The notes under the pieces were generated by a model that did not search any database, had not been told where the DNA came from, and saw nothing but the letters and a program-made list of their open reading frames with translations. From Planococcus versutus (GTDB lineage Bacteria; Bacillota; Bacilli; Bacillales_A; Planococcaceae), in contig NZ_CP016540.2 in assembly GCF_001186155.3 (NCBI RefSeq), positions 1,714,001-1,778,000 of the forward strand: a stretch of 64,000 bases of DNA. Reading direction: 5' to 3'. Below are positions 39,384 through 62,150 of the stretch, piece after piece. Each line of letters opens with the position of its first letter. The first letter of the stretch is position 1. Made by a program: the position numbers and the translations under genes.

Positions 39384-39411
39384 GCTACCGATAACTCAGG
39401 ATATGCAAACC
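39384..39411 (+). other. dif-like XerC/XerD site 1
   Basis: XerC-type half GCTACCGATAA, spacer CTCAGG, XerD-type half ATATGCAAACC. It has four mismatches to the array consensus (ACTTCCGATAA, six bases, ATATGTAAACT). It lies 40 bases past the 3' end of the diguanylate cyclase gene and bounds that module on the left. Confidence 0.65.
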
Positions 39412-39451
39412 AATTGCGATTCATTCTGCCTCTGCTTTTAGTTAGTTTCGT

Positions 39452-41041
39452 TTAATTTGAAGAAATCGTGATTTGGTTTCTTCCTTCAACTTTTGATGTA
39501 TACAAGGCGGAATCCGCGAACCCGAAAAGTTCGGTTACCGAATCGGTTTGTTTTAGGTATTCTGAAATTCCAATCGACACTGTTAGGATTTCATTAGGTA
39601 TATAGCTGGTTTTTTCAACTTTTCTCCGAATCTTTTCTGCCACATTATAAGCACTTAAAGAATCCGTATCTGGGAGTAGAATAACAAATTCCTCCCCCCC
39701 ATATCGAAAGCATAAATCATTTTTACGACTAACTGTGCAAAGGGTTTCAGCAATCATCTTTAATGTTTGATCTCCTACTTGATGTCCATACGTATCGTTG
39801 ACGGACTTGAAGTAATCGATGTCCAGCACTAGTAAAGAGAACAACCGACCTTCCTCTGACCAAACGCTTAAAACTTCGTCCAGATTTCTCCGGTTCAGTA
39901 GTCCTGTCAACGAATCCGTCTGTGCAGATTGGGTGAGTTGCTGATTGTTTCTTTCGATTGTTTCAAAAGCCATACCCACACTTTTGGTTAACAGGTCGGC
40001 TTCCCGATTCCAATGAGCTTCTTTAAGAACCTCTTTTTCAGATTGTAAAATTGGTTTTCCTTCGGCTAATTGATTCACAAGAGTACCCAGTCGATTAAAA
40101 GGCGCTGCTAACTTTCGAGCGATAAAGATCGACAACAAAAGTAGAAGTAAAAATGGCACCAAAGCTCTCATTAATAATTGTTGGAGTTCTACTAGCAGTA
40201 AATTCTCAACAAAGGAATATGGAGTCTGCTGCACAATTCCCCATCCTGCTTCTGGCACATAACTATAAGCTGATAGCATAGAAACGCCTATGACGTTCGT
40301 AGCAATCTCCTTTCCGCTTTGTCCCTCTTCTATTTTGCGCACCAGTGAATGTTCATCAAAATTTTCACCAATCCGCTGGCTCTGCGGATGAAATAATAAT
40401 ATACCGTTGGGGCCAACGACATAATAGTGGGAACCACTGTTATCACTCGCCTCATTATCAAGAATCTGATTCAAGGCATTTTCCTTTTGAAGATAAATGG
40501 TTCCGCCGATTATCCCCCTATAAGTTCCATCTTTCGAAAAGATGGGGTGACTCATTAAGATCAGTAGCTGATTCGAGGGTCCAACATAAGGTGTAGTCAA
40601 CATGGGCATTCGTGCGTCAAGTACATCTTTTGTATTGCCAGAGATTATCTTTGTTCCCTCCAATCCAATGCCTCCTGGACTGTTAACACGAATTATTCCC
40701 ATTTCATCAACCCATGAAAGGGAGTTGAAATATCCACTGCTACTCCTTAAAAGCTCTAATTGCTCATGGATTTCTTGATCAGTCATTTCTTCGCGTCTTT
40801 CTAAGAAATCTGCTGTAGATTCTAGATGAGTTCTCATCGAAATAAATAATGAGTCGACCGAATGACTCATCTTTTCAACCTTGGAATAATTAAGTGCTAA
40901 ATAAGTCGATGTTAAGGACTCTTTAGTCAAATGATAAGTCGAAATCGCAAGAATCAAAAGAGTCGAAATTACGGAAACGGAGACAAGTATAGATAACAAC
41001 GTTGCCAAGCTCACTTTGTGAGTGGTAAGAATTTTTTTCAT
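39452..41041 (-). CDS. membrane diguanylate cyclase with extracellular dCache sensor
   Basis: 529 residues: membrane helix (about 13-35), an extracellular dCache-like sensor (about 40-285) with FNSLSWVDEMG and YRGIIGGTIYL, a second helix (290-312), a HAMP-like linker and a GGDEF domain (370-529). The catalytic motif is GGEEF (FRYGGEEFVILLPD) with DTDSLTGLLNRR and DIDYFKSVNDTYGH upstream. It should make cyclic di-GMP in response to an external ligand. AAGGAG precedes the ATG. It is the only gene between dif-like sites 1 and 2. Confidence 0.9.
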   Translation of the reverse strand: MKKILTTHKVSLATLLSILVSVSVISTLLILAISTYHLTKESLTSTYLALNYSKVEKMSHSVDSLFISMRTHLESTADFLERREEMTDQEIHEQLELLRSSSGYFNSLSWVDEMGIIRVNSPGGIGLEGTKIISGNTKDVLDARMPMLTTPYVGPSNQLLILMSHPIFSKDGTYRGIIGGTIYLQKENALNQILDNEASDNSGSHYYVVGPNGILLFHPQSQRIGENFDEHSLVRKIEEGQSGKEIATNVIGVSMLSAYSYVPEAGWGIVQQTPYSFVENLLLVELQQLLMRALVPFLLLLLLSIFIARKLAAPFNRLGTLVNQLAEGKPILQSEKEVLKEAHWNREADLLTKSVGMAFETIERNNQQLTQSAQTDSLTGLLNRRNLDEVLSVWSEEGRLFSLLVLDIDYFKSVNDTYGHQVGDQTLKMIAETLCTVSRKNDLCFRYGGEEFVILLPDTDSLSAYNVAEKIRRKVEKTSYIPNEILTVSIGISEYLKQTDSVTELFGFADSALYTSKVEGRNQITISSN

Positions 41042-41331
41042 TTAGTGGACTCCTTATTAAATTAAAAATAGTCATTTATATAAAAACGTTCTGATTTATT
41101 GAAAGCGCAAAATAGCAATTATAAAATGAGCAATAAGAAAGATCTCTTTTCTTTATTTTCACATCACAGTTTTTAGTCCATAAACGATAATTTTTTTCCT
41201 TATACTTCAAAACAACTATACCATTGTACATTTAAAATCTTTTTTATTGCTTCTGATATATTAAAAAGAAGATTTAGTAGAAAAATAGAGAGAAGATGTG
41301 CTTAGAACAGCCTGTTCTCTCTATTTGCTTA
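41042..41331. other. gene-free stretch with a terminator-like hairpin
   Basis: No gene is seen. The left part is the promoter side of the cyclase gene. At 41283-41326 the arms AAATAGAGAGAA and TTCTCTCTATTT enclose a 20-base loop that itself contains AGAACAG/CTGTTCT. On the minus strand a T run follows. It ends 6 bases before dif-like site 2. Confidence 0.5.
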
Positions 41332-41359
41332 GCTTCAGATAAGTGACGATATGAAAGCT
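41332..41359 (+). other. dif-like XerC/XerD site 2
   Basis: XerC-type half GCTTCAGATAA, spacer GTGACG, XerD-type half ATATGAAAGCT. Four mismatches to the array consensus. It separates the cyclase module from the chrA module. The 195 bases to the chrA stop hold only a weak hairpin (41455-41490). Confidence 0.65.
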
Positions 41360-41554
41360 CAAAAACTATTTATTAAATTCATACATGGTGTCTTGTAAAT
41401 TCAATGCGTAAATGTTAAATCAAACTTCTTTTGAGAGCTGTATTTTGATATGTAAGTAAGCGACTTCCCTTTTGAGGTGGCTCACTTTTCAGTTACTGTA
41501 AACATTAAAGAATATCTTTTTAATCGATTATTTACCCATTCTCTAGGTATTCGC

Positions 41555-42751
41555 TTAGAATAAAGCAAGTAAAGAACCGCCTATTGCTCCTGTGACAACT
41601 ACCAGCCATGGTGGCAATTTCCAATAAGCCAACATACTGAATAAGACAGCTGCCAAAGCGAAATCCTTTGCTTCTATGATGGAACTTGTCCAAATCGGCG
41701 TGTAGAACGCAGAAATTAAAATCCCCAAAACTGCCGCATTGACCCCCATGATTGCACCCTTTACTTTCCGATTTGCGCGCAGTGCATCCCAAAAAGGCAA
41801 GACTCCCACAATCAACAAGAACGCCGGTAAAAAGATAGCGAAAGTAGCGAATAGGCCACCAATCCAGCCATTCATGATCGTTCCTAAATAAGCTGCAAAG
41901 GTAAACAAGGGTCCCGGTACTGCTTGAGTCGCCCCGTATCCAGTCAGAAAAGCTTCTTCACTCAACCAGCCTGTCGAGACAAATTCCTGCTGCAAAAGCG
42001 GCAAGACCACATGTCCCCCACCAAAAACCAATGAGCCTGCACGATAAAAACTATCGAACATCGCTACCCAGTATGAGCCGGTAACTTCTCGGAGAATTGG
42101 CAGAAAAAAAAGGAATCCAAAAAATAACAGCAAGCAAGCAGTTCCTACCTTTTTCGTAATTGGAAATTGCATCTGTCCCTCTGTTGTTTCGGCAGTGTTT
42201 TTATACAGAATATAACCAATTAAAGCTGCAATCAAGATGACTCCCACTTGCGTAAAAGCAGTCTGCCAGAAAAGCGTCCCAATCAAGGCAAACAAGACAA
42301 TTGCTTTCCTCTTCAAGTCAGGTGCGAGATTTTTTGCCATACCTAAAACGGCATGAGCCACTACTGCGACGGCAACAATTTTCAATCCTTTTAGCCATCC
42401 AGCATCCGATACATCAAAACTTTGTAATAGCAACGCAAATAAAATTAACGCGATAACCGATGGAAGGGTAAAACCAATGAAGCTCACGATTCCCCCTAAT
42501 ACGCCTGCACGCATCGCTCCAATTCCGATCCCTACCTGGCTGCTAGCAGGTCCAGGAAGAAATTGAGATAACGCAACTAGATCTGCATAACTTTTCTCAT
42601 CCATCCATTTTTTCCTTCGTACGTACTCTTCATGAAAATAGCCTAGGTGCGCAATTGGCCCTCCAAATGAAGTAAGTCCTAACCGAATGGAAACAATAAA
42701 GATTTCCAGTAATGATTTGAAACTGACAGTCGGTTTTTTTTGATTCATCAT
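41555..42751 (-). CDS. chrA: chromate transporter ChrA (two-domain)
   Basis: 398 residues, ten or more hydrophobic helices in two homologous halves. Each half carries the ChrA family motif: FGGPIAHLGYFHEEYVRR and LSQFLPGPASSQVGIG in the first, FGGGHVVLPLLQQEFV and TGYGATQAVPGPLFTFAAYLG in the second. It exports chromate in proton-coupled fashion. AAGGAGAG precedes the ATG. It is co-transcribed behind the PadR-type regulator gene 20 bases upstream. Confidence 0.92.
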   Translation of the reverse strand: MMNQKKPTVSFKSLLEIFIVSIRLGLTSFGGPIAHLGYFHEEYVRRKKWMDEKSYADLVALSQFLPGPASSQVGIGIGAMRAGVLGGIVSFIGFTLPSVIALILFALLLQSFDVSDAGWLKGLKIVAVAVVAHAVLGMAKNLAPDLKRKAIVLFALIGTLFWQTAFTQVGVILIAALIGYILYKNTAETTEGQMQFPITKKVGTACLLLFFGFLFFLPILREVTGSYWVAMFDSFYRAGSLVFGGGHVVLPLLQQEFVSTGWLSEEAFLTGYGATQAVPGPLFTFAAYLGTIMNGWIGGLFATFAIFLPAFLLIVGVLPFWDALRANRKVKGAIMGVNAAVLGILISAFYTPIWTSSIIEAKDFALAAVLFSMLAYWKLPPWLVVVTGAIGGSLLALF

Positions 42752-42771
42752 TCTCTCTTCTCTCCTTTGAT

Positions 42772-43080
42772 TCAGTCTTTTATCTCCTTAAACAGTTCGT
42801 AAGCTTTTTTTTGAGCTTCAACTAAAACGTGTTTCCCTTTTTCCGTAATACTGTAGTACTTCCGGATTTTACCTTCTACGTTCCGGTCTTCTCTCGTCAG
42901 CAAACCATCGGATTCCATGGAATGAAGAATCGGATAAAGCGTTCCCGGTCCGATACTATAGCCATGTTCCTGAAGTTCCTCCAGCATCCAAACACCATAA
43001 ATCGGCATTACTTTAGCATGGTGCAAGATATGGATATGAATAAATCCTAAAAAAAGTTTGCGAAGCACTTTGTCTTCCAT
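42772..43080 (-). CDS. PadR family transcriptional regulator
   Basis: 102 residues with the PadR winged helix (IGPGTLYPILHSMESDGLLTRED, RKYYSITEKGKHVL). It probably represses the chrA operon. The start is the ATG at 43080 behind AGGAG; ten more upstream codons are open but lack a site. An inverted repeat (CAATAT to ATATTG at about 43108-43129) lies just upstream and may be its operator. Confidence 0.88.
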   Translation of the reverse strand: MEDKVLRKLFLGFIHIHILHHAKVMPIYGVWMLEELQEHGYSIGPGTLYPILHSMESDGLLTREDRNVEGKIRKYYSITEKGKHVLVEAQKKAYELFKEIKD

Positions 43081-44077: not shown

Positions 44078-44105
44078 ACTTCTGACAATCCTGAATATGA
44101 AAACT
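44078..44105 (+). other. dif-like XerC/XerD site 3
   Basis: XerC-type half ACTTCTGACAA, spacer TCCTGA, XerD-type half ATATGAAAACT. Three mismatches to the array consensus. It separates the chrA/toxin-antitoxin module from the acetyltransferase/PNAG module. Confidence 0.72.
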
Positions 44106-44793: not shown

Positions 44794-45513
44794 ATGACGA
44801 TCGCGCTAGAAAAGAAGTAGATTCCACTAGCAAACTATTTTTCCATGGCAACAAAAGCAACCCTTACGTTGCACCTTACTGAAATTGAAAAAATCATGGG
44901 ACAGAACCTGCCTAATAGTGCCTACTTAAATCAAAGTTGGTAAAAAAAGACCAAAGCACCATCAAAGTATTTCCATGCTTGGCTAGATAACGGCTACATA
45001 GTTAAGGAGTTCAAGTCAAATCGTTATGTCAGTTTTGAAAGACTGGATCTTTTGACTAAAAACGATGAAAATAAGGATCATGCCAATGAGGATATTTTGC
45101 TCGTTCGTCCAGCTGGACATAGTGATGCTCGTTTTCTCGCAGAATTGCAGAAAAATATAGAAGGAGAATCAGATTTTCTATTGTATGGAAAAGAGGAACG
45201 AGCACTGTCTACACAAAAAGTGAGAAAGCAGATTATTGAGTGGAATCAACGCGGCCATTCAATTATCTTTCTTGCTATTTTAAATGGAAAACACGTCGGT
45301 TATTTGATGGTTATAGGGAATGAGGTTAAGCGAGCCAATCCCCGTGCTGCCTTACTCCTTGTTATTCAAGCTGATGCACAAGGCAAAGGAATCGCTTTCT
45401 CTCTTCTTCAAAAAGCAGAGGAATGGACTATTTCAAAAGCTATAAGTCGTCTTGAGCTGACTGTTTCAGAAGAAAACATTCCAGTTCGGAAGGCATTCGC
45501 AAAAATTCACTAA
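44794..45513 (+). pseudogene. fused small domain plus GNAT acetyltransferase, broken by stops
   Basis: From an ATG at 44794 behind AAAGGAA one continuous frame reads MTIALEKK, TAG (44818), IPLANYFSMATKATLTLHLT, EIEKIMGQNLPNSAYLNQSW, TAA (44941), KKTKAPSKYFHAWLDNGYIV, then through 45052 into a GNAT domain (AALLLVIQADAQGKGIAFSLL). The first part resembles a small domain with the pattern LT..EIE.I.G..LP.SA. The GNAT ends early at KAFAKIH. Two in-frame stops and a truncated end make it a pseudogene. A TTG-started piece at 45052-45513 remains open. Confidence 0.65.
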
Positions 45514-45879
45514 TTATCAACAATAAACTACACAATGAAATTTATATGGCCAAGTTTTTAGACTACTAAACTTTGAACTCATATTACCCTTAATGGGAAG
45601 TCTTTCGTTCTATATTTTAAGGATGAGCCCATTCAATTATTGCAGTGTAAACTGTCTGCAGTTGCTGTTCTTCTTATAGTCAATGACGAGATAATTTAGG
45701 CAGCTGCCATCGTGTAAATTTAGTGTGAATCAAGTTGCTTCTACAAATGCCATTCAACTTTGGCAGCATCCTAGTGTGTAAGGGACAATCCGTTGATATT
45801 CCAAAATGCGTTGTTTTATTCTCAGAAGTTCTTTTCTACTTATCGTTGAGTCTTTGATTTAATGTGCCTCAATGCATGA
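45514..45879 (+). pseudogene. relic of a second GNAT acetyltransferase
   Basis: No open frame. Around 45725-45800 the plus strand reads SVNQVASTNAIQLWQHPSV, a stop, then GTIR, which matches the Asn-x-x-A-x-x-LW segment at the end of GNAT domains. Several stops are present. Rest of the stretch shows nothing. Confidence 0.45.
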
Positions 45880-46917
45880 TTAGTTTTGGCTTATGCTTAA
45901 ATAGTTTTTTATTAAAGGCAAAACTTGAGCTAATAATTGCTCATCTGTTAGTTCGGTTCCACGCTCAGTCCAAAATGTGTATGCGGTACCTTTAAGGACA
46001 TCTTGCGTGTCAACTTCGCCGTAGGGATTATCTTTGTAACAAAATACAGTTGATTTATGAAATGCCTTTACGTAGTCAATTTGTTCTGCGATAGCTTCTG
46101 TATTTATACTGTCATTACTTGGACTGTACACTAATGTATAAAAATTCGAATTGTGAAGCGGTCTATTGTGTGAAATAAAAACCTCTGGAGTCAACATGTT
46201 TTCTTGCCAATAGACAATCTCTACATTTGAATTTAGTGCATATAATCCGACTTCATTTAAAGAATCGTTCCACATTCTCGGTTTGTAGCCGCATTGCTCG
46301 ACATAACCAGAAATTGTATTGATAAACCTTATATACTCTTCCTGGAAGTTATTTGTTCCCGGCACTTCGTCACCGCCTATTGAGAATATTTGGTGTCCTT
46401 TATATTTGTCTTGCTTAAATAAAAAGGCTATTTCCTCGATCAAATGTTTAACGAGCGTTGTTGCTTGAGGGTTATCAAAATAGTCAACTAAACCCTCATC
46501 AAAGTCTGACACGATCGATTTGTAAAAGTTTTCGTCGAATTTTTCTTTGACCAGGTTCAACCACCCCTTTGAGTGGCTTGGAACATCAAAATCTGGAATG
46601 ATCATCACGTCTCTATCATTTGCATAAGCGATGAGTTCTAGAATTTCGCTTTTAACGAGGTATTGATCATTCGTTTTTGTCAAAGTTTGACCTAGGATTT
46701 CAGAGGATAACCGGTATCCCTCTGCATCCGAAAAATGTAATTGAAGATAGTTTCCACCACCTGTTTGAATCTCATCGATAACGCGCATTAAGAACGCTAC
46801 TGGCACATGACGTCTCGAAGTATCTAATATAATACCGCTGACCAATCGAGACCGAGTGGCTTCTCCGCGTAGGTGTTTCGATAAATTGAAGAGCTCTTTT
46901 TTAATACGGTTCTGCAA
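45880..46917 (-). CDS. GH20 beta-N-acetylhexosaminidase, dispersin B-like
   Basis: 345 residues forming one GH20 barrel. SGIILDTSRRHVP, YLQLHFSDAEGYR and IPDFDVPSHSKGWL precede the catalytic Asp-Glu pair in FSIGGDEVPGTNN; PRMWNDSL and VYWQEN follow. Single-domain GH20 enzymes of this size resemble dispersin B, which cuts poly-beta-1,6-GlcNAc (PNAG). It diverges from PNAG synthesis genes, which supports that substrate. No signal peptide is visible at the TTG start (GGAGG 8 bases upstream), so it may act inside the cell or leave by another route. Confidence 0.85.
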   Translation of the reverse strand: MQNRIKKELFNLSKHLRGEATRSRLVSGIILDTSRRHVPVAFLMRVIDEIQTGGGNYLQLHFSDAEGYRLSSEILGQTLTKTNDQYLVKSEILELIAYANDRDVMIIPDFDVPSHSKGWLNLVKEKFDENFYKSIVSDFDEGLVDYFDNPQATTLVKHLIEEIAFLFKQDKYKGHQIFSIGGDEVPGTNNFQEEYIRFINTISGYVEQCGYKPRMWNDSLNEVGLYALNSNVEIVYWQENMLTPEVFISHNRPLHNSNFYTLVYSPSNDSINTEAIAEQIDYVKAFHKSTVFCYKDNPYGEVDTQDVLKGTAYTFWTERGTELTDEQLLAQVLPLIKNYLSISQN

Positions 46918-47076
46918 AATAAAAACCTCCTATATCTAAGGATATGGTTAAAGTAGTTTTGTTGCTTTGTAAGTATATCGACCTTTTTAAAAAAGAAGTA
47001 AATAAAATTAATATACTTATTTTTTTGAAAAAACTTCACTATATAAATATAGAAACACGAAAGTAGGAATATTGAA

Positions 47077-48321
47077 ATGGACTTCTTTTCAGGACCCTAT
47101 GGTTTGGTCACAAGTTTTGTTTTTTGGTATCCATTTCTAATGGCACTTTTTTGGATGGCAGGATCTATTTTTTTTCTGAGAACAAAAGAAAATAACCAAA
47201 GTGACATCGATATAGATGGATTTGATTGGCCAATGATCAGTATCCTCGTTCCTTGTTACAACGAAGAAGATACGATAAAGGAGACCATAGAAAATCTATC
47301 TGGATTGTCCTATCCCAAAAAGGAAATTATTCTAATAAATGACGGATCAACCGATCTAACCGCTTCTCTTTTAGAGGAATTATCAACAAAACATACAGAA
47401 GTAAGAGTAATTCAATTAGAACAGAACCGAGGAAAAGCAAATGCTTTACAAGTTGGCTTATTTGCTGCTAAAGCTGAGTATTTAGTCTGCGTTGATGCAG
47501 ATGCCCTTTTAGCAGATACAGCCCCTTACTATATGATTCATCAGTTTTTTGTAAGTGGAGAACGAGTGGGCGCTGTTACAGGAAGTCCATCTATTCGGAA
47601 TCGAAACACGCTTTTGAGCCGCATGCAATTGGTTGAATATGCTTCAATTATTGGCGCGATCAAGCGAACACAAAGACTGTTAGGCAAAGTAATGACGGTA
47701 TCTGGAGTCGTTGTGACATTTCGTAAAAAAGCATTAGTAGATGTTGGGTTATGGGACCGCGATATGATTACAGAAGACATTGCGGTTAGTTGGAAATTGC
47801 AAAAACGATTTTGGGATGTTCGCTATGAACCTCGTGCAATTTGTTGGATGCTTGTCCCGGAAACACTGTCGGGTATTTGGCAACAGCGAATTCGTTGGGC
47901 GCAAGGAGGACAGGAAGTCGTTTTGCGTCATTGGCGCATCTTATTCAGCTGGAAACAAAGACGGCTGTGGCTTATTTTTTTGGAGCAATGTGTTAGTACA
48001 ATCTGGGCTTTAAGTTGGCTATTTATTACACTGGTTCTTATTTTTTCAGCTAATGCTTTTCAAGATTTATTACTTTGGTTGACATTAACTTCTTTTTTCC
48101 TTGTATTTATTAGCATGATTCAACTGTTTATCTCTCTTGTAATTGATTCTAGACAGAACGGTGTGATGAAGTATTATTTTTGGGCCGCGTGGTATCCGGC
48201 TATTTACTGGATGGTAAACACACTCGTGGTTGTGGTTGCTTTACCAAGAGCCATTAAATCTCGTTACAAAGGAGGTTACGCTGTATGGTCAAGTCCAGAT
48301 CGAGGTCTAAAGAAATCATGA
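47077..48321 (+). CDS. PNAG synthase, PgaC/IcaA-type family 2 glycosyltransferase
   Basis: 414 residues: an N-terminal membrane helix, a cytoplasmic GT2 domain and three or four C-terminal helices. The processive GT signature is complete: DGSTD, VDADALL, ITEDIAVSWKL and QQRIRWAQGG (QxxRW). Like PgaC/IcaA it would polymerise UDP-GlcNAc into poly-beta-1,6-GlcNAc across the membrane. Neighbours (PgaD-like and IcaB-like genes downstream, GH20 divergent) support PNAG rather than hyaluronan or cellulose. GTAGGA precedes the ATG. Confidence 0.88.
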   Translation: MDFFSGPYGLVTSFVFWYPFLMALFWMAGSIFFLRTKENNQSDIDIDGFDWPMISILVPCYNEEDTIKETIENLSGLSYPKKEIILINDGSTDLTASLLEELSTKHTEVRVIQLEQNRGKANALQVGLFAAKAEYLVCVDADALLADTAPYYMIHQFFVSGERVGAVTGSPSIRNRNTLLSRMQLVEYASIIGAIKRTQRLLGKVMTVSGVVVTFRKKALVDVGLWDRDMITEDIAVSWKLQKRFWDVRYEPRAICWMLVPETLSGIWQQRIRWAQGGQEVVLRHWRILFSWKQRRLWLIFLEQCVSTIWALSWLFITLVLIFSANAFQDLLLWLTLTSFFLVFISMIQLFISLVIDSRQNGVMKYYFWAAWYPAIYWMVNTLVVVVALPRAIKSRYKGGYAVWSSPDRGLKKS

Positions 48322-48752
48322 TCATTAGTGGAAATCGTTCAAATTTTAGATTTGTTACCGATCTGCTTATTACTTTATTTTTTTGGGTGTATACAGTGAT
48401 TGTAATCATTTTCATTTTATCAGCTACTACTGGATTTAGTAATGTTGTGACAAGAACGCTAAACACTACATTCAAAACAACAAATAGTGAAGTTCAAGCA
48501 GTGATTTTATTTGGATTTATCGTATTCATTGTTATTTATTTACTATTATTTATTAATCGTCTTTATAATAAAAAACGGTTTGGCAAACTAACCCGGCGAA
48601 CTTATCCAGAAGTGGTTACTCAGCGTGAACTAATCGCATTGCAATTAATGAGTGTCAAAAACATTAAAAAACTTGAAAGCAACTATGTGATTTTTGAAAA
48701 AAATCCAATTATCTCATTAGAAGAGGAAAAAAAGCATGAAGAAAGCGATTAA
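48285..48752 (+). CDS. PgaD/IcaD-like PNAG synthase auxiliary membrane protein
   Basis: 155 residues with two membrane helices (about 29-53 and 71-92) and a cytoplasmic C-terminal helix rich in charge. Size, topology and place just after the GT2 gene match PgaD, which forms the active synthase with PgaC. AAAGGAGG sits 9 bases before the ATG, inside the end of the GT2 gene (37-base overlap). Sequence similarity of PgaD proteins is low, so context carries weight. Confidence 0.72.
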   Translation: MVKSRSRSKEIMIISGNRSNFRFVTDLLITLFFWVYTVIVIIFILSATTGFSNVVTRTLNTTFKTTNSEVQAVILFGFIVFIVIYLLLFINRLYNKKRFGKLTRRTYPEVVTQRELIALQLMSVKNIKKLESNYVIFEKNPIISLEEEKKHEESD

Positions 48753-49605
48753 ATTAATCATTATTTTAGCTTTGGTATACACGATATTTTTGTTCAGAGA
48801 TGACATTAAAGAAAAAGTGTTTACGGTAAATGAGTCAGCGATGTCTTTTCCAGAAGAGCTGAACAAAGAGAGCTGCATAGGTTTAAACTATCATCGTGTG
48901 TTAGAGGATAATTCGCTTGTTCGAATAAGCAGATGGCTGTTAAACTCGGATGAATTGGTTAAGTATAGCGTAGTAACTACAGAATTCGAAGAACAATTAA
49001 AGTCATTAGCCGATGCAGGGGCTGTGTTTTTGTCAGAAGACGAATTACTTCAAGCAAAAAAATCAGGAAACTTCCCGGCAAAATGCGTATGGGTTTCTTT
49101 TGACGACATTGATTACTCAGTTTATAAAAATGCCTTTCCAATCTTGAAAAAAGCAAACGTTCCATTTACCATGTTTGTCATTGCAGGACGCGTTGGAGAT
49201 GAAGATTTTAACAACTTAAAAATGGCAACATGGGACCAAATAAGAGAAATGGAAAAGAGTGGACTTGCCAGCGTTGGATCTCATACGTATAAAATGCATC
49301 GATTTGAAAACGAAACTCCCATATTCCTTGTTCCAGAAAATAGAGTGGCATTTAAAAGCGATTTGAAAAAAAGTATTGAAGTTATTGAAAAAGAGCTTGA
49401 AATAACTGTACGTAGCTTCGCTTACCCATACGGGGATACTGATGAGTTTACGGCTCAGGCACTACGGGATCAAGGACTAGAAGCAGGATATATATTAGCA
49501 CCTCAAACAATAGTGCCGACAGATGATAATTTTTACATCAATCGCGTACTTGTTAACGATGCAACACATCGCAATGTCATTCTTCCTTTCATTAAAAGTC
49601 AGTAA
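48736..49605 (+). CDS. PNAG N-deacetylase, IcaB/PgaB-type
   Basis: 289 residues with an N-terminal membrane anchor (about 4-20) and an extracellular polysaccharide deacetylase (CE4) domain. Metal and catalytic motifs: CIGLNYHRVL, VWVSFDDID (Asp pair), GSHTYKMH (His pair) and AYPYGDTDEF. It would remove some acetyl groups from PNAG, giving the polymer positive charge for surface retention. It overlaps the PgaD-like gene by 17 bases and ends the operon. No IcaC-type membrane acyltransferase gene follows. Confidence 0.85.
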   Translation: MKKAIKLIIILALVYTIFLFRDDIKEKVFTVNESAMSFPEELNKESCIGLNYHRVLEDNSLVRISRWLLNSDELVKYSVVTTEFEEQLKSLADAGAVFLSEDELLQAKKSGNFPAKCVWVSFDDIDYSVYKNAFPILKKANVPFTMFVIAGRVGDEDFNNLKMATWDQIREMEKSGLASVGSHTYKMHRFENETPIFLVPENRVAFKSDLKKSIEVIEKELEITVRSFAYPYGDTDEFTAQALRDQGLEAGYILAPQTIVPTDDNFYINRVLVNDATHRNVILPFIKSQ

Positions 49606-50122: not shown

Positions 50123-50150
50123 GCTACCGATAATGCTTGCTATATAAACT
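50123..50150 (+). other. dif-like XerC/XerD site 4
   Basis: XerC-type half GCTACCGATAA (same as site 1), spacer TGCTTG, XerD-type half CTATATAAACT. Four mismatches to the consensus. It separates the PNAG module from the immunity-gene/mazEF module. Confidence 0.62.
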
Positions 50151-51780: not shown

Positions 51781-51814
51781 TGAATGTAACTTAATTACTA
51801 TTATGTTACATTTA
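51781..51814. repeat. palindromic repeat P2
   Basis: TGAATGTAACTTAAT, loop TACT, ATTATGTTACATTTA. Two mismatches between arms. It lies 12 bases past the 3' end of the gene at 51827. Confidence 0.8.
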
Positions 51815-52302: not shown

Positions 52303-52340
52303 TTTGAATATAACTTAATTCACAATAAGTTACATTCAAA
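52303..52340. repeat. palindromic repeat P3
   Basis: Arms TTTGAATATAACTTA and TAAGTTACATTCAAA (one mismatch) around ATTCACAA. It lies 11 bases past the 3' end of the gene at 52352. Confidence 0.85.
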
Positions 52341-52773: not shown

Positions 52774-52774
52774 C

Positions 52775-52943: not shown

Positions 52944-53945
52944 TTACACTTTCTTTACCTGGCTCCAGATTTCTTTTAGCAGTTTACCGTTAATGGTGGC
53001 GTTCTCCAATAGATCCCCTACTGTAGGATAGGATTGAAAATCCGTTTGGTAATCGGACAAATGCCAAAGGTTCGAATGTTCGTTCACATGATAAATTTCA
53101 CCTTGATAAGAAAAGCTTTCCATTCCTGTTAGTTCCACGTCTTCTCTTAATTTTTCAAAAGGATAATTCATTTTTTCCTTGATCAAGTCAGCAAACAGTT
53201 GAACATCACTTTCTAAATCTTTTTCAAAATGTGCCAACAATCTATTGAGCGTGGGATCTTCCAACTGGTGAGTCATGCCCCAGATAATTCGGGCCACTTC
53301 AATTCTCACGACTTCACTCGGATGTACGCTTAATTCCTGTAATCGTTTACCAAACCATTTCACATCGACATCGGTATACGACAAGTGCACCAAAGCCATC
53401 ACCAATTCATCACATTTGTTTTGTTGGATAAACCTTTCAAGGTCTTGTTCACTGTATTCCTCTACTGCATCTCCATCTTCTTCACAAGCATCAGATTGCT
53501 CAATAGATAACTTGGTTAAAAATTCATCAAAACTTCCTGCAACTTGTGTGATCTGCTCTGCCTCATTGTCCACGTAAACAATCGGAGGGTTTGAAACGAT
53601 ATTGCGATAATCCATAGCAAGCCAGGTATGTCCATCCCCGCTAAATAGAATGAGTCCTTCTGGCATGTCCCACTCATTCAAAAAATAAGCATTATCAAGA
53701 ATGCCGTTCTGAAGGCCAATTCCTTTAATATGATCAACCGGAATAAATGCGTCATACTGGACCGGAGCCATAGAATGGGGAAAAGCATTATAAAGAATAC
53801 GTCCTCCATTTTGTTCTTTAAGAATTGCTAGGTAAGCGTCAAGAAATGTTATACCGAACATTTCTTCTGCACTTGTTACCATGTCATCTGTCAGAGATTG
53901 TAGCTTAAATTCATGACTCTCTTCTTCCCAAATACTTGTCGCCAA
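52944..53945 (-). CDS. SMI1/KNR4 family protein (immunity type)
   Basis: 333 residues. The N-terminal part (about 15-155) follows the SMI1/KNR4 pattern: MFGITFLDAYLAILKEQNGGRI, then EGLILFSGDGHTWLAMDYR and PPIVYVDNEAEQITQVAGSFDEFL. The C-terminal part is helical and repeat-like with a final YPTVGDLLENATING block. SMI1 proteins commonly neutralise polymorphic or contact-dependent toxins. No toxin gene is visible nearby, so it would be an orphan immunity gene. GAGGT is 7 bases before TTG 53945; a GTG at 53954 is too close to it. Confidence 0.85.
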   Translation of the reverse strand: MATSIWEEESHEFKLQSLTDDMVTSAEEMFGITFLDAYLAILKEQNGGRILYNAFPHSMAPVQYDAFIPVDHIKGIGLQNGILDNAYFLNEWDMPEGLILFSGDGHTWLAMDYRNIVSNPPIVYVDNEAEQITQVAGSFDEFLTKLSIEQSDACEEDGDAVEEYSEQDLERFIQQNKCDELVMALVHLSYTDVDVKWFGKRLQELSVHPSEVVRIEVARIIWGMTHQLEDPTLNRLLAHFEKDLESDVQLFADLIKEKMNYPFEKLREDVELTGMESFSYQGEIYHVNEHSNLWHLSDYQTDFQSYPTVGDLLENATINGKLLKEIWSQVKKV

Positions 53946-54099
53946 AATATTCACCTCTATTTTATTATCTTTAAGAATTGATTTGGACCACTTAGCTTAA
54001 ATATACTTAGAACTCTCATGAATAGCTAGATAATTTTGGAAATAAAAGCATGCATAAAAGTACAAGTTTACGGACAAAAAATGAGTTCCAGTACTCAAA

Positions 54100-54124
54100 A
54101 AGACCAATCATAATGATTGGTCTT
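54100..54124 (-). terminator. terminator of mazEF
   Basis: AAGACCAATCA and TGATTGGTCTT form a perfect stem followed by TTTTT-rich sequence on the minus strand, just past mazF. Confidence 0.8.
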
Positions 54125-54131
54125 CCTTTCT

Positions 54132-54500
54132 TTACCCTATAAAAGTAATGGCATCGATGATAGCCTTGCATTCTTCAATCAACTCTTGATCGGCCTCGTC
54201 TGTTAATCGTGCAGCTCTAGCCAATGGATCAATTGCCTTTATCTTTTCACACAATACATACCCAATTGTCTGATTATTTACTACGCTGTTCTTGTTATTC
54301 TTGGTTCTTCCATTTACCGGTACATGAGTCGGGTAACCTTTATTCGTATTGGTAATTGGCAAGACCCAAATTAAGTCGGTCTCTTTATGTACATTTTCTT
54401 CTGAAACAACGATGGCTGGACGATAACCTTGCTGTTCGTGCCCTTTTGCCGGCGACATATCGACCTTTATAATATCTCCAACTTTAAAAAATCTTGTCAT
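54132..54500 (-). CDS. MazF/PemK family mRNA interferase toxin
   Basis: 122 residues with the MazF barrel: FKVGDIIKVDMSPAKGHEQQGYRPAIVVS, then LPITNTNKGYPTHVPVNG and EKIKAIDPLARAARL. It cleaves mRNA when its antitoxin is lost. GGAGGA is 6 bases before the second ATG (54500), preferred over the ATG at 54503. It follows the MazE gene at 54584, with a strong hairpin in the gap. It makes the module self-retaining. Confidence 0.92.
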   Translation of the reverse strand: MTRFFKVGDIIKVDMSPAKGHEQQGYRPAIVVSEENVHKETDLIWVLPITNTNKGYPTHVPVNGRTKNNKNSVVNNQTIGYVLCEKIKAIDPLARAARLTDEADQELIEECKAIIDAITFIG

Positions 54501-54523
54501 CATTGCTCCTCCAATTAAATAGT

Positions 54524-54874: not shown

Positions 54875-55275
54875 CTCCTCAGAGTGCTATTTATATACCG
54901 AGTATATACAATGTATCTACATTCGGCAAGCAATAGCTCTTTTAAGATTCTTCTATAATGGAACTCGATAAAAAGTAGTCACCATTCGCAATAAACTCTT
55001 TTGATCCATCTAGCTGTTTATTTTACTTCCGATAATCCGGAATATGTAAACTTTTTAGCCCATGCTTTTAAAAATACCTCTTAGCGGTTTATCCATTAGC
55101 CTCTATATAACATCGATTAGCTGCATTGTAAATCAGCCATTCCCACACCGGTTGACAGTTTACAAATGTGCGTTGGGAAAGCTCAGAGGATAGATTTGCT
55201 ATAAAAGATGAAGTACGTAAAAACAAAAGAGCCAAAGAAAATAAAAACTTCTGCACTTCTAGTTTTAGGTAATAT
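54875..55275. other. gene-free stretch containing dif-like site 5
   Basis: It holds the mazEF promoter side and dif-like site 5. A frame at 55089-55298 has no ribosome site and overlaps the end of the next gene; it is not accepted. Nothing else seen. Confidence 0.5.
55025..55052 (+). other. dif-like XerC/XerD site 5 (matches the array consensus)
   Basis: XerC-type half ACTTCCGATAA, spacer TCCGGA, XerD-type half ATATGTAAACT. The known B. subtilis dif has the halves ACTTCCTAGAA and TTATGTAAACT with a 6-base spacer, so the match in length, spacing and half-site sequence is close. Confidence 0.85.
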
Positions 55276-56414: not shown

Positions 56415-56455
56415 AGATTATCCAACAGAATCAACACCTCTATTCAGTATCAGCA

Positions 56456-57277: not shown

Positions 57278-57907
57278 TTTAGTGTTGACGTACCAACCTC
57301 TAAACCGAGTTCGGTAAGAACAAAACATCTCTTATCTGTATTATTACGAATATCTTCATCACTCGCATGAGTCTCTATCCTATTAATTACTACATCTCTC
57401 GTTCCTTTAACTGGTTTAGATATTGCCTTTAGGATACTTTTCATTTCCACAACTGTTAAATGCTTTAGTATTTCTCTAGGTAGGTTCTCTCTTATCAATT
57501 TATTTTCTTGTAATTTTGAAACCACTTGAACAAAATCAAGAAATATATCTCTCGCTTTAAACGAGTCTATCGAGTGTGTATGACCAGAAAAGGTTTCTAA
57601 AGGATCATTTACATAAGTTGGTCTTTTATTTAACTCATGTAATACTAGAATATCTTCAACTTTATATATACTATTATTGTTGTGTATTGCAGGTGGGCTA
57701 AATTTCGTCATGACAATGCTCCTTAATATTTTTTATCGAGGGCTTTCGTAATGGATAACGAGCTGATTGCCTATTATAAATCATACCATTTTCGTAGATT
57801 CCGTATCTATGCTCTGTACTGTTCCAGTTTACATATCACAGGTTATGAAAATTTCTATAAAGTAAAGGGAATGCTAATAGCCAGCATCTCCCTTTGCTTT
57901 AAGTATA

Positions 57908-57935
57908 ACTTCCGATAATGTGTCATATGTAAACC
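57908..57935 (+). other. dif-like XerC/XerD site 6
   Basis: XerC-type half ACTTCCGATAA (exact), spacer TGTGTC, XerD-type half ATATGTAAACC (one mismatch). It separates the SAP-gene module from the sigma factor module. Confidence 0.82.
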
Positions 57936-57992
57936 TATTCTTCTTGTATACTTTTCTTATACAAGAGAAAAATTAAAATAAATTTCAAAAAA

Positions 57993-58022
57993 AAACGACT
58001 TTTGTTTTTTCATTACGTCTAA
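57993..58022 (+). promoter_or_regulatory. possible ECF-type promoter of the sigma factor operon
   Basis: AAAACGAC at 57993-58000 and CGTCTA at 58017-58022 are 16 bases apart, 35 bases before the start codon. CGTC is the usual -10 core for ECF sigma factors of Bacilli; the -35 only partly fits. It would mean self-activation. Apart from this and dif-like site 6, nothing is seen in 57712-58056. Confidence 0.4.
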
Positions 58023-58056
58023 CAAGTAGAAATCATAAATGAGGGGGCGAGATTCT

Positions 58057-58581
58057 TTGACTAGAGAGAGGAAAAACGAAGTCACTGATTGGTACCAGCA
58101 GCACAGTGATTCGATATTCAGGTACATATTGTTCATGGTCCGTGATTATCAACAGGCGGAGGATTTAACACAAGAAACGTTTATTAAAGGATTTCGATAT
58201 TATGATACCTTTGAACGCAAGGCAAATGCGAAAACTTGGCTTTTTCGCATTGCCCATAATCTCACCATCGATTTTTTACGAAAACAAAAGCCCTTGGAAT
58301 TGTTAAAAGACCTTGTATTTCTCGGAAAAAACACGAGTACTTTGCCTGAAGAACTGGTGGAGATAAAAGAAAGCTCAACAGAAATTTACCATGCGTTAGG
58401 TCTGTTAAAACCTGCTTACCGCGAAGTCATTATCCTGAGAAAAATTAAGGAATTCACTATAGAAGAAACCGGAGAAATTTTGAATTGGTCAGAAAGTAAA
58501 GTAAAAAATACGCTTTCTCGCGCACTTTCTGCACTGGAAAAGCAATTAAACAAGGAGGGAATTATCCATGAAAAAAACTGA
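58057..58581 (+). CDS. ECF-type RNA polymerase sigma factor
   Basis: 174 residues with sigma region 2 (DSIFRYILFMVRDYQQAEDLTQETF, KTWLFRIAHNLTIDFLRK) and region 4 (LKPAYREVIILRKIKEFTIEETGEIL, WSESKVKNTLSRALSAL). The ATG at 58039 lies inside the GAGGGGGC ribosome site; the TTG at 58057 is 7 bases after it and is preferred. The downstream gene encodes its likely anti-sigma, overlapping by 14 bases. The target stress is unknown; it resembles the SigM/SigX/SigW group. Confidence 0.88.
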   Translation: MTRERKNEVTDWYQQHSDSIFRYILFMVRDYQQAEDLTQETFIKGFRYYDTFERKANAKTWLFRIAHNLTIDFLRKQKPLELLKDLVFLGKNTSTLPEELVEIKESSTEIYHALGLLKPAYREVIILRKIKEFTIEETGEILNWSESKVKNTLSRALSALEKQLNKEGIIHEKN

Positions 58582-59362
58582 TGGTATGCATACTTCATTA
58601 GACAATCAGTTGAAACAATTGGAACAGGATACTAGTTGGAACCAAAAGCACAAAGCAAAATTGCATACTCAACTATTATTGAATTTGGACAAGCAAGAGT
58701 CCCGAAACCGATTTTTCACTGGCTTTAAATTTACCTCTAGTTTAGTCCTTTGCTCGATCCTTTTAGTCGCCGGGGTTCTGTTTCTTTCACAAAACATTCT
58801 TCAAAATGATAGTGGTTTGACAACAGGAACTAACACGGGTGAAGAAATTACTTTGGTAGCAAGTGAAGAGATAGATGTCGAAAAAACCAAAGAAACCATT
58901 CAAGCAGTTATAGAAGAAGAGTTCAACGGACCAGACAAGAAGTATAAAGAATTATCAGAAGCTGCCATGGAAGCCCAAAACAATATAGAAACTCAAGAAG
59001 AGTTTGATGCTTTGCAGGAAACACCCATATGGCAAGACTATACGGACTATATGGTCGATACGTACGCTTCTTATTTCACCGAGAATGGCTATGACCTTTT
59101 TTTAACCACAACACCTGCTTTTATGTACAGTGATTTTGATGGCGACTACAACCTGACAGCTTCGGATATTAACATCAGCCAGAATAAAAACAATTTGAAC
59201 ATGTTTCAATTCACTTTTCAAGTGGACTATGAAAACGCAAACGGAGAAGTTCAGTCCTACTCTTTCGAAGGTGAAGCCATTGCTTCTGAAGAAGGAAAAA
59301 TTGAGAAGCTGCAATTTCTAGATAAGGATGACTTACTTGCAGAAATGAATGAAGATATTTAG
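58568..59362 (+). CDS. putative anti-sigma factor, single-pass membrane protein
   Basis: 264 residues: a cytoplasmic N-terminus of about 52 residues, one membrane helix (about 54-77), then an extracellular acidic domain (EEFNGPDKKYKELSEAAM; DYTDYMVDTYASYFTENGYD). Topology and overlap with the sigma gene support an anti-sigma role. The N-terminal domain is not a recognisable zinc anti-sigma domain. AAGGAGGG precedes the ATG inside the sigma gene. A hairpin at 59367-59392 (GCTGCC/GGTAGC, then Ts) ends the operon. Confidence 0.72.
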   Translation: MKKTDGMHTSLDNQLKQLEQDTSWNQKHKAKLHTQLLLNLDKQESRNRFFTGFKFTSSLVLCSILLVAGVLFLSQNILQNDSGLTTGTNTGEEITLVASEEIDVEKTKETIQAVIEEEFNGPDKKYKELSEAAMEAQNNIETQEEFDALQETPIWQDYTDYMVDTYASYFTENGYDLFLTTTPAFMYSDFDGDYNLTASDINISQNKNNLNMFQFTFQVDYENANGEVQSYSFEGEAIASEEGKIEKLQFLDKDDLLAEMNEDI

Positions 59363-59366
59363 TGAC

Positions 59367-59392
59367 GCTGCCTTTTGGTAGCGCTTTTTTTA
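59367..59392 (+). terminator. terminator of the sigma/anti-sigma operon
   Basis: GCTGCC TTTT GGTAGC is followed by a run of seven Ts, 4 bases after the stop. Confidence 0.75.
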
Positions 59393-59485
59393 TATTTTAG
59401 TTAACTGTTCTTCGCTCTTTACCTTCCGTTCACAAAAGTATGCTTACGCAAACCTCCAAAAGAGAACCGCTATCTTAGCTTCTTC

Positions 59486-59513
59486 ACTTCCGATAACTCT
59501 TGATATGTCAACT
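59486..59513 (+). other. dif-like XerC/XerD site 7
   Basis: XerC-type half ACTTCCGATAA (exact), spacer CTCTTG, XerD-type half ATATGTCAACT (one mismatch). It separates the sigma module from the next two genes. Confidence 0.82.
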
Positions 59514-59593
59514 TGTTTTTAATCCTTTCCATTCAAATTACTTTTAACAAAAAAATTTCAACGAGCTTTATTCCCAGCGGGAGTAATGTTGTT

Positions 59594-59956: not shown

Positions 59957-60180
59957 CTTTTTGCGCCTTCTTTTGGTTATGACTTGTGTAGCAGCAGTCT
60001 TCTGACACTCCATTCTACCACCTATCAGAAAGGTGGAAAATGGCATTCAGCTGCCTATCCATTGCTTGGGAAAGTTATCAGCCACCTATAGATGGGATTT
60101 TCATAAAAGAGTTTCCCAATTAAGACGATGCTCTATAATGAATGCAGAAGAAAAAAACAGACCTTGAAAGCAGGTGTCAG

Positions 60181-60678: not shown

Positions 60679-61012
60679 TTCCCTTAAAAAAGAACCTTTC
60701 GTAAAGTCCACTTTCCTATTCACAAGAAAAAGAAGAAACTCGTGGTTATGCTTCTTCGCTTCCGATAAGCTACGATATGTAAACTAGACAATTCTTTTTA
60801 TAAAATTTGTGCTTTCCAATAAACTATTCTTACCGCAAAATATTTTTACCTGACACGTTTCGATAAATAAAAACACTGAAATAAAATAAGATACTCTCAA
60901 CAACAGCATGAATCTTGTTGAAGAGAATATCCTTTTAGTTATTTTAATTTACTGCTTTACCTGTCTTACATTAATCATCTAAGACAAGCTACACATATTC
61001 TGAAAGTGAATT
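60679..61012. other. gene-free stretch containing dif-like site 8
   Basis: Apart from the dif-like site at 60758-60785 nothing is seen except a short inverted repeat near 60898-60920 (CAACAG... TGTTG) that may end the DoxX gene. Confidence 0.5.
60758..60785 (+). other. dif-like XerC/XerD site 8
   Basis: XerC-type half GCTTCCGATAA (one mismatch), spacer GCTACG, XerD-type half ATATGTAAACT (exact). It separates the two-unknown-gene module from the doxX-hxlR module. Confidence 0.83.
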
Positions 61013-61363
61013 TTAAAAACGTACGATTGCGACAAGTAATGCCAAGCCAATAATAATCACATTAGTAACGATCGCTTTGTATTCTCCCCGCTTCGCGTGA
61101 AATATTGTCGCAAACACCATAATCAGTAATAAACCTAGAGCCGCTAAGGGAGTTAAAATTGGCACTATGCCTAAAGCAAGTGGCAGTATTAATCCAATCC
61201 CTCCTAAAACCTCGACCATACCAATAAATGCAATAAAGCCCTTCGAATGATTGCTGACCCACGGCAGTGATTTTTTTGCCTTTTCATATTGTAACTTGGT
61301 CGTACCCGCACTAATAAAAAGTAATGCCAATAATCCTTGGATAATCCATAAAGCTATGTTCAT
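61013..61363 (-). CDS. DoxX family membrane protein
   Basis: 116 residues with four membrane helices and the DoxX pattern (ALLFISAGTTKLQYEKAKKSL, GMVEVLGGIGLILPLALG). DoxX-like proteins are linked to redox or thiol stress and to catabolism; the exact role is unknown. AAGGAGG is 7 bases before the ATG. It diverges from an HxlR regulator that probably controls it. Confidence 0.85.
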   Translation of the reverse strand: MNIALWIIQGLLALLFISAGTTKLQYEKAKKSLPWVSNHSKGFIAFIGMVEVLGGIGLILPLALGIVPILTPLAALGLLLIMVFATIFHAKRGEYKAIVTNVIIIGLALLVAIVRF

Positions 61364-61434
61364 TTAATTTCCTCCTTGTTTCGAATCAACTACTAAGGCT
61401 ATAATAAACCCTAGTAAACTTATTGAGAAGTAGG

Positions 61435-61446
61435 CACTTTAAAGTG
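61435..61446. promoter_or_regulatory. palindrome between doxX and hxlR, candidate operator
   Basis: CACTTTAAAGTG is a perfect 12-base palindrome in the divergent promoter region, 40 bases before hxlR. HxlR regulators bind inverted repeats in such regions. Confidence 0.45.
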
Positions 61447-61486
61447 TCATAGTATACAAAAGGATACCTATAGAGGAGGAATTTTA

Positions 61487-61855
61487 ATGGCTACTGAATG
61501 TAATGGCGGAATCGAAACAGCTCTTGATTTACTCGTTGGCAAATGGAAACCCGTAATTCTTTTCCACCTAATGAATAATGGCATTTTGCGTTTTAGTGAA
61601 CTGCAACGCTCGATTCCCGGGATAACCAAAAAAATGCTGACTACCCAATTAAGAGAATTAGAATACCACAATATTGTTAACCGCAAAGTCTATGCGCAAG
61701 TCCCACCAAAGGTTGAATACTCAATTACCGAATATGGAAAAGGCCTAGCTCCTACTTTATTGTCTATGCATGAATGGGGTTTTAAACACTTGGAGCACTT
61801 AAATAAACTTTATGGCACACACTATGAAGATCAGATTCAAATAAAAAAGAGCTGA
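61487..61855 (+). CDS. HxlR family transcriptional regulator
   Basis: 122 residues with the HxlR winged helix: LLVGKWKPVILFHLMNNGILRFSELQRSI, then GITKKMLTTQLRELEYHNIV and VEYSITEYGKGLAPTL. A Cys at residue 5 (MATECNGGIETAL) could be a redox or electrophile sensor, as in many HxlR proteins. GAGGAGG precedes the ATG. It diverges from doxX. Confidence 0.9.
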   Translation: MATECNGGIETALDLLVGKWKPVILFHLMNNGILRFSELQRSIPGITKKMLTTQLRELEYHNIVNRKVYAQVPPKVEYSITEYGKGLAPTLLSMHEWGFKHLEHLNKLYGTHYEDQIQIKKS

Positions 61856-62020
61856 TACTCACTCTTTTTATCACGATCCAGTTCTTGAAAAAATTTATTG
61901 TAATAAACTTTCCTATTAGCCTAGCTATGAATGAAAAAAGATATTAGGTAAGTTTATTGAAGCTGAATTGATTAACAAAACTAGAAACACCATATGAAAT
62001 TGCACTTAAAAAGAAAACTT

Positions 62021-62052
62021 AAACGCCTAACCAGGAAACTGGTTAGGCGTTT
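62021..62052 (+). terminator. strong terminator-like hairpin after hxlR
   Basis: AAACGCCTAACCAG, GAAA, CTGGTTAGGCGTTT: perfect 14-base arms with a GAAA tetraloop and flanking A/T runs, so it may act in both directions. Confidence 0.8.
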
Positions 62053-62122
62053 TCTCGTACAAGACGATTTACAAGTAGGCATTAGGAAAACAAAGGTGAC
62101 AAGCTTATACTTGAACCTCTTG

Positions 62123-62150
62123 CCTTTTGATAAGCTGCGTTATGTAAATT
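62123..62150 (+). other. dif-like XerC/XerD site 9
   Basis: XerC-type half CCTTTTGATAA (three mismatches), spacer GCTGCG, XerD-type half TTATGTAAATT (two mismatches to the array, one to canonical dif). The weakest accepted site; spacing and direction agree with the others. Confidence 0.55.

Follow-up and report, generated by a model that had tools for sequence, protein, structure and literature searches.

Dif-like Xer sites and two companion site families as probable borders of exchangeable gene cassettes in Planococcus

What is the role of the 28-bp dif-like repeats that stand between the genes of an accessory region in Planococcus versutus, and do they take part in moving those genes? We analyzed the 64-kb stretch of the chromosome contig that carries them (C1:1714001-1778000, hereafter the window), together with the rest of the genome and related genomes. 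Our comparisons suggest that the repeats, here called Xer sites, very probably mark the borders of exchanged cassettes, a cassette being one to a few genes bounded by recombination sites. Judging from their matching arms, they would be recognized by the host recombinases XerC and XerD, which normally act on the single dif site and are quite likely the enzymes at work here. Two other families of recombination sites appear to serve as borders in the same islands, and we put the probability of the whole explanation, an exchangeable cassette system with three site families, at roughly 0.7.

Distribution of the sites in the window, the genome and the genus

The initial annotation had described nine Xer sites in the window. 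All nine were recovered on the plus strand and between genes, and their match quality, zero to five mismatches over the 22 arm bases (listed site by site below), was as it had been reported. Its estimate that sites this good should be rare by chance was also borne out, as a first-order Markov null (100 sequences, both strands) gave 0.01 sites with four mismatches and 0.11 with five per 64 kb, and none with fewer than four. The accompanying statement that the first 37 kb is free of such sites needs one correction, a five-mismatch match at 23679 (16.7 bits in the weight matrix), which lies in a 321-amino-acid open reading frame and was taken as chance. The inventory was right in its nine sites and incomplete in missing a reversed degenerate site at 57826-57853 and the two further families of repeated sites.

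The genome of 3.33 Mb is assembled in three contigs, C1 (3.25 Mb), C2 (70.7 kb) and C3 (9.8 kb), the last two of which are probably plasmids. At three or fewer mismatches, a genome-wide search found 40 Xer sites, most of them chromosomal (34 on C1, 5 on C2, 1 on C3), and none with the reversed pattern as a control. They are clustered in islands, not evenly spread, and the chromosomal sites other than dif lie near 1.18-1.20, 1.47-1.48, 1.75-1.79 and 3.06-3.08 Mb. A separate dif, which the initial annotation had advised looking for along with xerC and xerD, likely stands at C1:1568393 (spacer TTTATA, T at base 18), near the middle of the chromosome that starts with dnaA; its left arm is identical to the consensus left arm of the array sites. 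Canonical XerC and XerD were both found above the NCBIfam cut-offs. The window array thus differs from the usual single dif at the terminus, its sites being additional to the likely dif. According to the accessible text of a dif survey, each of 17 Bacillus strains has a unique dif (PMC3025954).

We searched 250 family genomes, one per species, so that all comparisons are between species. At two or fewer mismatches, sites were present in all 46 genomes of the genus including this one (dif counted where matching), with 2 to 35 sites in each of the other 45 and 0 to 6 in the 204 genomes of other genera. An exact scan of named sequences with the site core returned 66 stretches, mainly from Planococcus and Planomicrobium, with a few matches in Exiguobacterium, Paenisporosarcina, Tetzosporium, Chryseomicrobium, Thalassobacillus and Cytobacillus.

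For quantitative work we assembled 28 islands with 169 Xer sites from seven genomes picked for many sites and good assembly, with genes called by our own simple finder. None of the 169 sites falls inside a called gene, though 65% of the island sequence is coding. Adjacent sites share their orientation in 128 of 138 pairs and are opposite in 10, with a median gap of 2.2 kb, and 288 island genes run against the site direction and 114 along it. In nine genomes starting with dnaA, the sites of both chromosome arms are directed away from dif in 119 of 124 cases, with the XerD half toward the origin; G206 and G168, whose start at dnaA was not established, were excluded from this count, and including them gives 147 of 155 for sites and 50 of 54 for clusters. 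This mirror orientation about dif would link module traffic to the polarity of the chromosome.

Homology breaks and the place of exchange

The breakpoint comparison that had been proposed for strains was run here between species, and the breaks of homology concentrate at the sites. Among 856 distinct endpoints of interspecies homology of at least 300 bp, 80 lie within 15 bp of a Xer site (mean, 12.3, and maximum, 25, in 200 shifts of the positions). Compared with intergenic pseudo-sites, 66 of the 169 sites have a break (control mean, 40.7; maximum, 56) and only 8 are crossed by homology (control mean, 29.5; minimum, 18); these homology counts are not independent of descent.

Homologous modules, 82 to 97% identical across species, were found in unrelated neighborhoods with both ends at sites. 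Complete examples are a module of 1,682 bp shared by this genome and G168 (96.7% identical) and one of 3,607 bp shared by SK3692 and G069 (96.1%). The window itself supplies a further case, as its module 57908-59513 recurs with both ends at sites in Planococcus sp. SK3692 (on a contig labeled plasmid, 82.2%) and in CP5-4_YE (81.7%), while the 1.5-kb flanks of the module in these two strains do not match the window flanks on either side. Outside the genus, Cytobacillus gottheilii and Exiguobacterium sp. s146 share a 1.9-kb stretch (99.0% identity) that ends at a site. Ten P. halocryophilus HM12 loci were dropped from the named-locus sets used for modules and spacers as likely G069 duplicates, and other loci of these sets overlap the 18 further genomes used for spacer order. 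The plasmid collection yielded no copy of a window module that spanned most of the query sequence.

To locate the exchange inside the site, we formed groups of sites that share homology on one side, 23 for the left and 23 for the right, and compared arm mismatches within groups with shuffles. In left-homologous groups, the left arms agree (0.78 mismatches versus 1.39 shuffled, 0 of 2000 shuffles as low) and the right arms do not (0.98 versus 1.03, P = 0.24). The reverse holds for right-homologous groups, where the right arms agree (0.49 versus 0.92, 0 of 2000) and the left arms barely do (1.50 versus 1.65, P = 0.09). Because the variant bases of each arm travel with the module on their own side, the crossover falls within the 28-bp site, between the arms, and the pattern is what recombination at the spacer would leave. 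The spacer was shared above chance in both kinds of group, its class being kept in 0.61 and 0.54 of cases versus 0.24 expected; exact spacer identity exceeds chance only on the left.

Exchange at these sites is thus well supported as history by the genome comparisons. The view of the initial annotation, that the window holds a stock of Xer-exchangeable cassettes as a Gram-positive chromosomal counterpart of pdif modules, gains support from the islands, the homology breaks located at the borders and the recurring modules. Its Xer modules stand, and the picture was incomplete in lacking the two additional families of border sites and the order of site types.

Companion site families and the order of site types

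We classed Xer spacers by their last two bases (GA or AA, class 1; TC, class 2; TG, class 3; CG, class 4) and the spacers of a second, 34-bp family as alpha, beta, gamma and delta, all classes being defined after inspection of the data. The 34-bp motif came to light because 14 Xer sites, including 11 of the 33 in class 4, are directly adjoined by an element of about 150 bp (one case being one base off), which contains the palindrome TGAATGTAACTTA-N8-TAAGTTACATTCA, two 13-base halves around an 8-base spacer. This genome has 58 copies at three or fewer mismatches and none of the reversed control, and among the matches listed every place is in or at the edge of an island, on C2 or on C3. The motif occurs in 45 of the 46 genus genomes. 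At up to six mismatches, the islands hold 188 copies, none of them in a called gene, and their shuffle one; eight of nine core flanks have none, and the ninth, at the edge of island A, has four. A 3.2-kb stretch of that island (C1:1194752-1197978) is 97% identical to C3:430-3651, with a 34-bp site at its start in either place.

All three site families are places where homology breaks. With endpoints of homologies of at least 250 bp, 34-bp sites hold 265 of 935 (21.4 expected), and the 26-bp palindromes that form the third family hold 82 of 923 (6.8 expected). We also examined 15 plasmids that carry the gene for a 187-amino-acid tyrosine recombinase, 13 from Planococcus (counting C3), one from Lysinibacillus and one from Rummeliibacillus. 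Upstream of this gene, the closest 34-bp site stands at 202 to 204 bp in 7 plasmids, at 97 to 120 bp in 2 and at 390 to 967 bp in 5; the remaining plasmid has none in the 644 bases available. From this position, the 34-bp site is probably the target of the plasmid recombinase, whose family matches 821 plasmid records, including 14 from Planococcus and 554 from Enterococcus, the site having been examined in close relatives only. The idea that the 34-bp repeats are transposon ends was dropped, as full copies are themselves 13-8-13 palindromes.

The 26-bp palindrome is found, at six or fewer mismatches and within 150 bp, left of 59 of the 169 Xer sites, and neither on the right nor in shuffles; in many cases it stands 26 to 58 bp left of the site. 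We first thought of it as a Xer accessory site. That idea was displaced by its position 141 to 142 bp upstream of genes for serine recombinases of about 205 amino acids in four cases (with a resolvase domain in the two tested), which makes it more likely that the palindrome is a resolvase site, probably that of the 205-amino-acid serine resolvase.

Along the site direction, Xer and 34-bp sites tend to follow the cycle 1-2-3-4-alpha-beta-gamma-delta. In the seven genomes, 151 of 271 steps go forward and 14 backward, the rest leading elsewhere, and 2000 permutations of the classes gave a mean of 43.9 forward steps and a maximum of 65. The window is an instance, its series from 55025 onward reading 1, 2, 3, 4, 4, alpha, beta, gamma, delta when the reversed site is left out. 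The features of the array are as follows.

39384..39411, plus strand: Xer site 1, spacer CTCAGG, 4 mismatches, 29.7 bits
39452..41041, minus strand: module gene for a dCache-GGDEF diguanylate cyclase
41332..41359, plus strand: Xer site 2, spacer GTGACG, 4 mismatches
41555..43080, minus strand: module genes for a chromate transporter (41555-42751) and a PadR regulator (42772-43080)
44078..44105, plus strand: Xer site 3, spacer TCCTGA, 3 mismatches
45052..49605: module genes for a GNAT acetyltransferase, GH20, GT2, a PgaD-like protein and a polysaccharide deacetylase, resembling a poly-N-acetylglucosamine (PNAG) set, in which the PgaD match falls below the Pfam cut-off
50123..50150, plus strand: Xer site 4, spacer TGCTTG, 4 mismatches
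51781..51814, plus strand: 34-bp site, alpha, spacer ATTACTAT
52305..52338, plus strand: 34-bp site, gamma, spacer ATTCACAA
52737..52770, plus strand: 34-bp site, delta, spacer TCTGCACA
52944..54503, minus strand: cassette genes for a SUKH-domain protein and a PemK/MazF-like toxin
54050: weak copy of the 26-bp palindrome (6 mismatches) between these two genes
55025..55052, plus strand: Xer site 5, spacer TCCGGA (class 1), full consensus match
57826..57853, minus strand: degenerate Xer-like site in opposite orientation, spacer CCTGTG, 19.7 bits in the weight matrix
57908..57935, plus strand: Xer site 6, spacer TGTGTC (class 2), 1 mismatch, bounding the recurring module on its entry side
58135..59362, plus strand: gene for an extracytoplasmic function (ECF) sigma factor and a partner gene without a Pfam match
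59486..59513, plus strand: Xer site 7, spacer CTCTTG (class 3), 1 mismatch, bounding the recurring module on its exit side
60758..60785, plus strand: Xer site 8, spacer GCTACG (class 4), 1 mismatch
61013..61855: module genes for a DoxX-like protein (minus strand) and an HxlR regulator (plus strand)
62123..62150, plus strand: Xer site 9, spacer GCTGCG (class 4), 5 mismatches
62266..62299, plus strand: 34-bp site, alpha, spacer CTTACACT
62708..62741, plus strand: 34-bp site, beta, spacer CTTGCTAT
63176..63209, plus strand: 34-bp site, gamma, spacer ATTCACAT
63701..63734, plus strand: 34-bp site, delta, spacer ACTGCACA

The degenerate site and site 6 form an oppositely oriented pair (57826/57908) about 85 bp apart, one of the two with the spacer CCTGTG. 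Such a pair was also seen at L083:551/636 on a 7.6-kb P. wigleyi contig, and this spacer recurs on small contigs too.

The order of the 34-bp sites was seen again in G172, a previously unused genome, where among the matches listed 20 steps go forward, none back and one elsewhere, after five unclassed sites and the second copy of a repeated array on its contig C4 had been dropped, with one array probably still counted twice. On G172:C4 and on another plasmid contig, G216:C2 (31,009 bp), site positions repeat at an offset of 15.4 kb and about 15.5 kb, respectively, as if both were head-to-tail dimers. For the Xer sites, the 2-to-3 step leads by 12 to 2 in the named loci, which partly overlap the 18 further genomes.

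The spacers obey two additional regularities. In 67 pairs of complete homologous cassettes (33 families), the site family is kept at 133 of 134 ends and the spacer class at 73, where 38.6 would be expected. Neighboring sites avoid sharing a spacer, with no identical adjacent pair among 128 in the seven genomes (4.4 expected, P = 0.009). We also weighed segmental duplication of a single array as the source of the recurring spacers but discarded it, since equal spacers in this genome mostly enclose unrelated modules.

These regularities suggest how the system may work. A cassette whose neighboring spacers differ would not readily be deleted, whereas equal spacers in another island or plasmid could recombine, and two such crossovers would swap the intervening cassette. 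Since swaps of this kind would preserve the borders, the order of site types would be kept while the genes change, and we lean slightly toward address-matched exchange as the cause of the order. The 34-bp and 26-bp sites appear to act as further borders in the same islands and are probably cut by the plasmid tyrosine recombinase and the serine resolvase, respectively, as their positions suggest. More tentatively, at a little under even odds, the islands could be an address-ordered gene depot in which the sites of three recombinases follow one cyclic order, Xer 1-2-3-4, 34-bp alpha-beta-gamma-delta and then the 26-bp palindrome. If this is true, a cassette arriving on a plasmid or from another island would mainly replace the occupant of the equivalent slot, and the depot would amount to recombinase-mediated cassette exchange as it occurs in nature, using several heterospecific sites. 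The ordered spacers would then give a testable rule for where cassettes are placed and for how unrelated genes are exchanged without breakage of the array.

Alternative explanations, related systems and neighboring features

Several results weigh against cassette exchange at matched addresses. In raw numbers, 103 homologies break at Xer sites, a count that the intergenic control also reaches (mean, 77.5; maximum, 113). Four small plasmids, analyzed over their full length, lack Xer sites, and only two matches to the islands, both one-ended, came from six plasmid records. The Xer order is weaker in the 18 further genomes, in which the 2-to-3 step leads by 14 to 6 (P = 0.058) and the 3-to-4 step does not recur (0 to 1). 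Identical neighbors do occur, in 2 of 66 pairs of these genomes and in 1 of 23 pairs of the named loci, and neighbors differing by at most one spacer base show no clear depletion (9 versus 12.2, P = 0.20). The addresses would not be strict, because the spacer class differs at 61 of 134 homologous ends. Excision, circles and XerCD binding are predictions made from sequence.

Some of these observations would suit a scheme in which cassettes are excised one by one as circles and, in the manner of integrons, insert at Xer sites with no matching of addresses, the spacer order being that of an ancestral array copied to several loci. The discordant classes agree with its loose targeting, identical direct neighbors exist, and the direct orientation of neighbors is what single-site insertion would give. 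However, insertion of a circle at one site leaves two equal spacers, a configuration missing from all 128 pairs of the main set; classes are kept above chance on both sides of homologous modules, and equal spacers in this genome mostly flank modules with no relation to one another. Differing neighbors together with kept classes favor double crossovers between matching addresses over free circles, which we consider unlikely. It is much less probable still that homologous recombination or transposition moves the genes past sites that are passive end markers, or that insertion sequences (IS) and other repeats set the breakpoints. The islands are indeed rich in repeats and IS copies, one of 1.24 kb being 99.5 to 99.9% identical in three places, and many homology endpoints lie in other intergenic gaps, but each arm goes with its adjacent module, which places the crossover within 28 bp, and the flanks of the recurring window module are unmatched on the left and right in two other strains. 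That the sites are terminators or protein-binding elements between genes, not recombination sites, seems to us highly improbable. A stable hairpin (-12 kcal/mol or lower) lies left of 81 of the 169 sites and right of 12, but 28% of 325 other intergenic windows reach this value, so hairpins are not special to the sites; moreover, the left arm equals that of the likely dif, and neither the border role nor the arm segregation fits such elements.

Cassette exchange at Xer sites has its nearest parallel in Acinetobacter. The accessible parts of three reports describe dif modules with 28-bp XerC-spacer-XerD border sites on plasmids and chromosomes, module islands, spacers that decide which pairs recombine, and extra chromosomal sites that differ from the main dif in the center, the shuffling being described in Acinetobacter and close relatives (PMC13141974, PMC12907356, PMC6449649). 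One of these adds that the sites bounding a module are inversely oriented and that modules of alternating C and D type come and go in pairs (PMC13141974). The Planococcus modules are similar in being flanked by 28-bp sites, each with a XerC arm, a 6-bp spacer and a XerD arm, and in turning up in different contexts with their junctions at these sites. In contrast to the inverted, alternating C and D modules, neighboring Planococcus sites are mostly direct and single modules recur; the host is Gram-positive, the sites are mirrored about dif, and the islands also hold two further families of recombinase sites. Further features of the Acinetobacter type are residence on Rep_3/OrfX plasmids and XerCD-dependent rearrangement detected by experiment; in this genome, 34 of the 40 sites are chromosomal.

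In integrons, cassettes of one or a few genes and of varied function are arrayed with a site separating each from the next. The Planococcus arrays share this layout, but their sites are dif-like and not attC, and the spacers of neighbors differ. None of the five tyrosine recombinases put to NCBIfam, from seven tyrosine-recombinase places in the genome, reached the cut-off for an integron integrase. Integrative mobile elements exploiting Xer (IMEX), such as CTX phage, are mobile DNA that uses host XerCD and inserts at dif. Planococcus modules would resemble them in the use of host XerCD by mobile DNA and differ in that their sites form arrays far from dif. Plasmid multimer resolution systems use a tyrosine or a serine recombinase, and the 34-bp and 26-bp sites recall them by their near-constant distance upstream of plasmid recombinase genes; unlike in such systems, they occur in many copies with recurring spacers as cassette borders, chromosomes included. 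In the literature outside most subscription journals, we found no paper combining Planococcus, XerC, plasmid and dif; Planococcus with Xer matched only work on Sphingomonas, judged by title, and one of four core strings occurs, only in work that by title concerns other subjects. Planococcus would thus be a Gram-positive genus with chromosomal module shuffling whose cargo includes defense, metal-resistance, regulatory and toxin-like genes, and its Xer, 34-bp and 26-bp sites may serve as ready-made orthogonal tools.

The mixed cargo is illustrated by a module of island D, in which the Gabija pair GajA and GajB stands alone between sites with the spacers CTCATG and TCCTGA (L037:11655-15240). On C2, two Xer sites enclose a lone histidyl-tRNA-synthetase-like gene (L039:11087-12373). 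The same contig carries a XerS-type tyrosine recombinase (L039:14669-15793), a type known for streptococci and lactococci, which is also annotated on the P. maritimus plasmid NZ_CP101821.1.

The comparisons also indicate that the chromosome terminus is inverted relative to other genomes of the genus, with both ends of the inversion near islands B and C (window 18404-37722 and G000 C1:1463000-1496000). Window 30366-36570 is reversed in eight of nine genomes searched and lies within the dif-left half in the seven that start with dnaA; in five of the latter, C1:1496001-1507000 maps reversed to the right half, and in G203 and G236 it does so only partly. Relative to G226, this genome and G206 have the dif block reversed, and seven others do not. 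The flank L034:3490-8066 proved a poor marker. Xer sites or, equally, the near-identical IS copies in both islands could have mediated the inversion. The 1.24-kb element, probably an insertion sequence, has two copies in island B (C1:1463026-1464269 and C1:1473143-1474386) and one in island C, at window 56057-57296.

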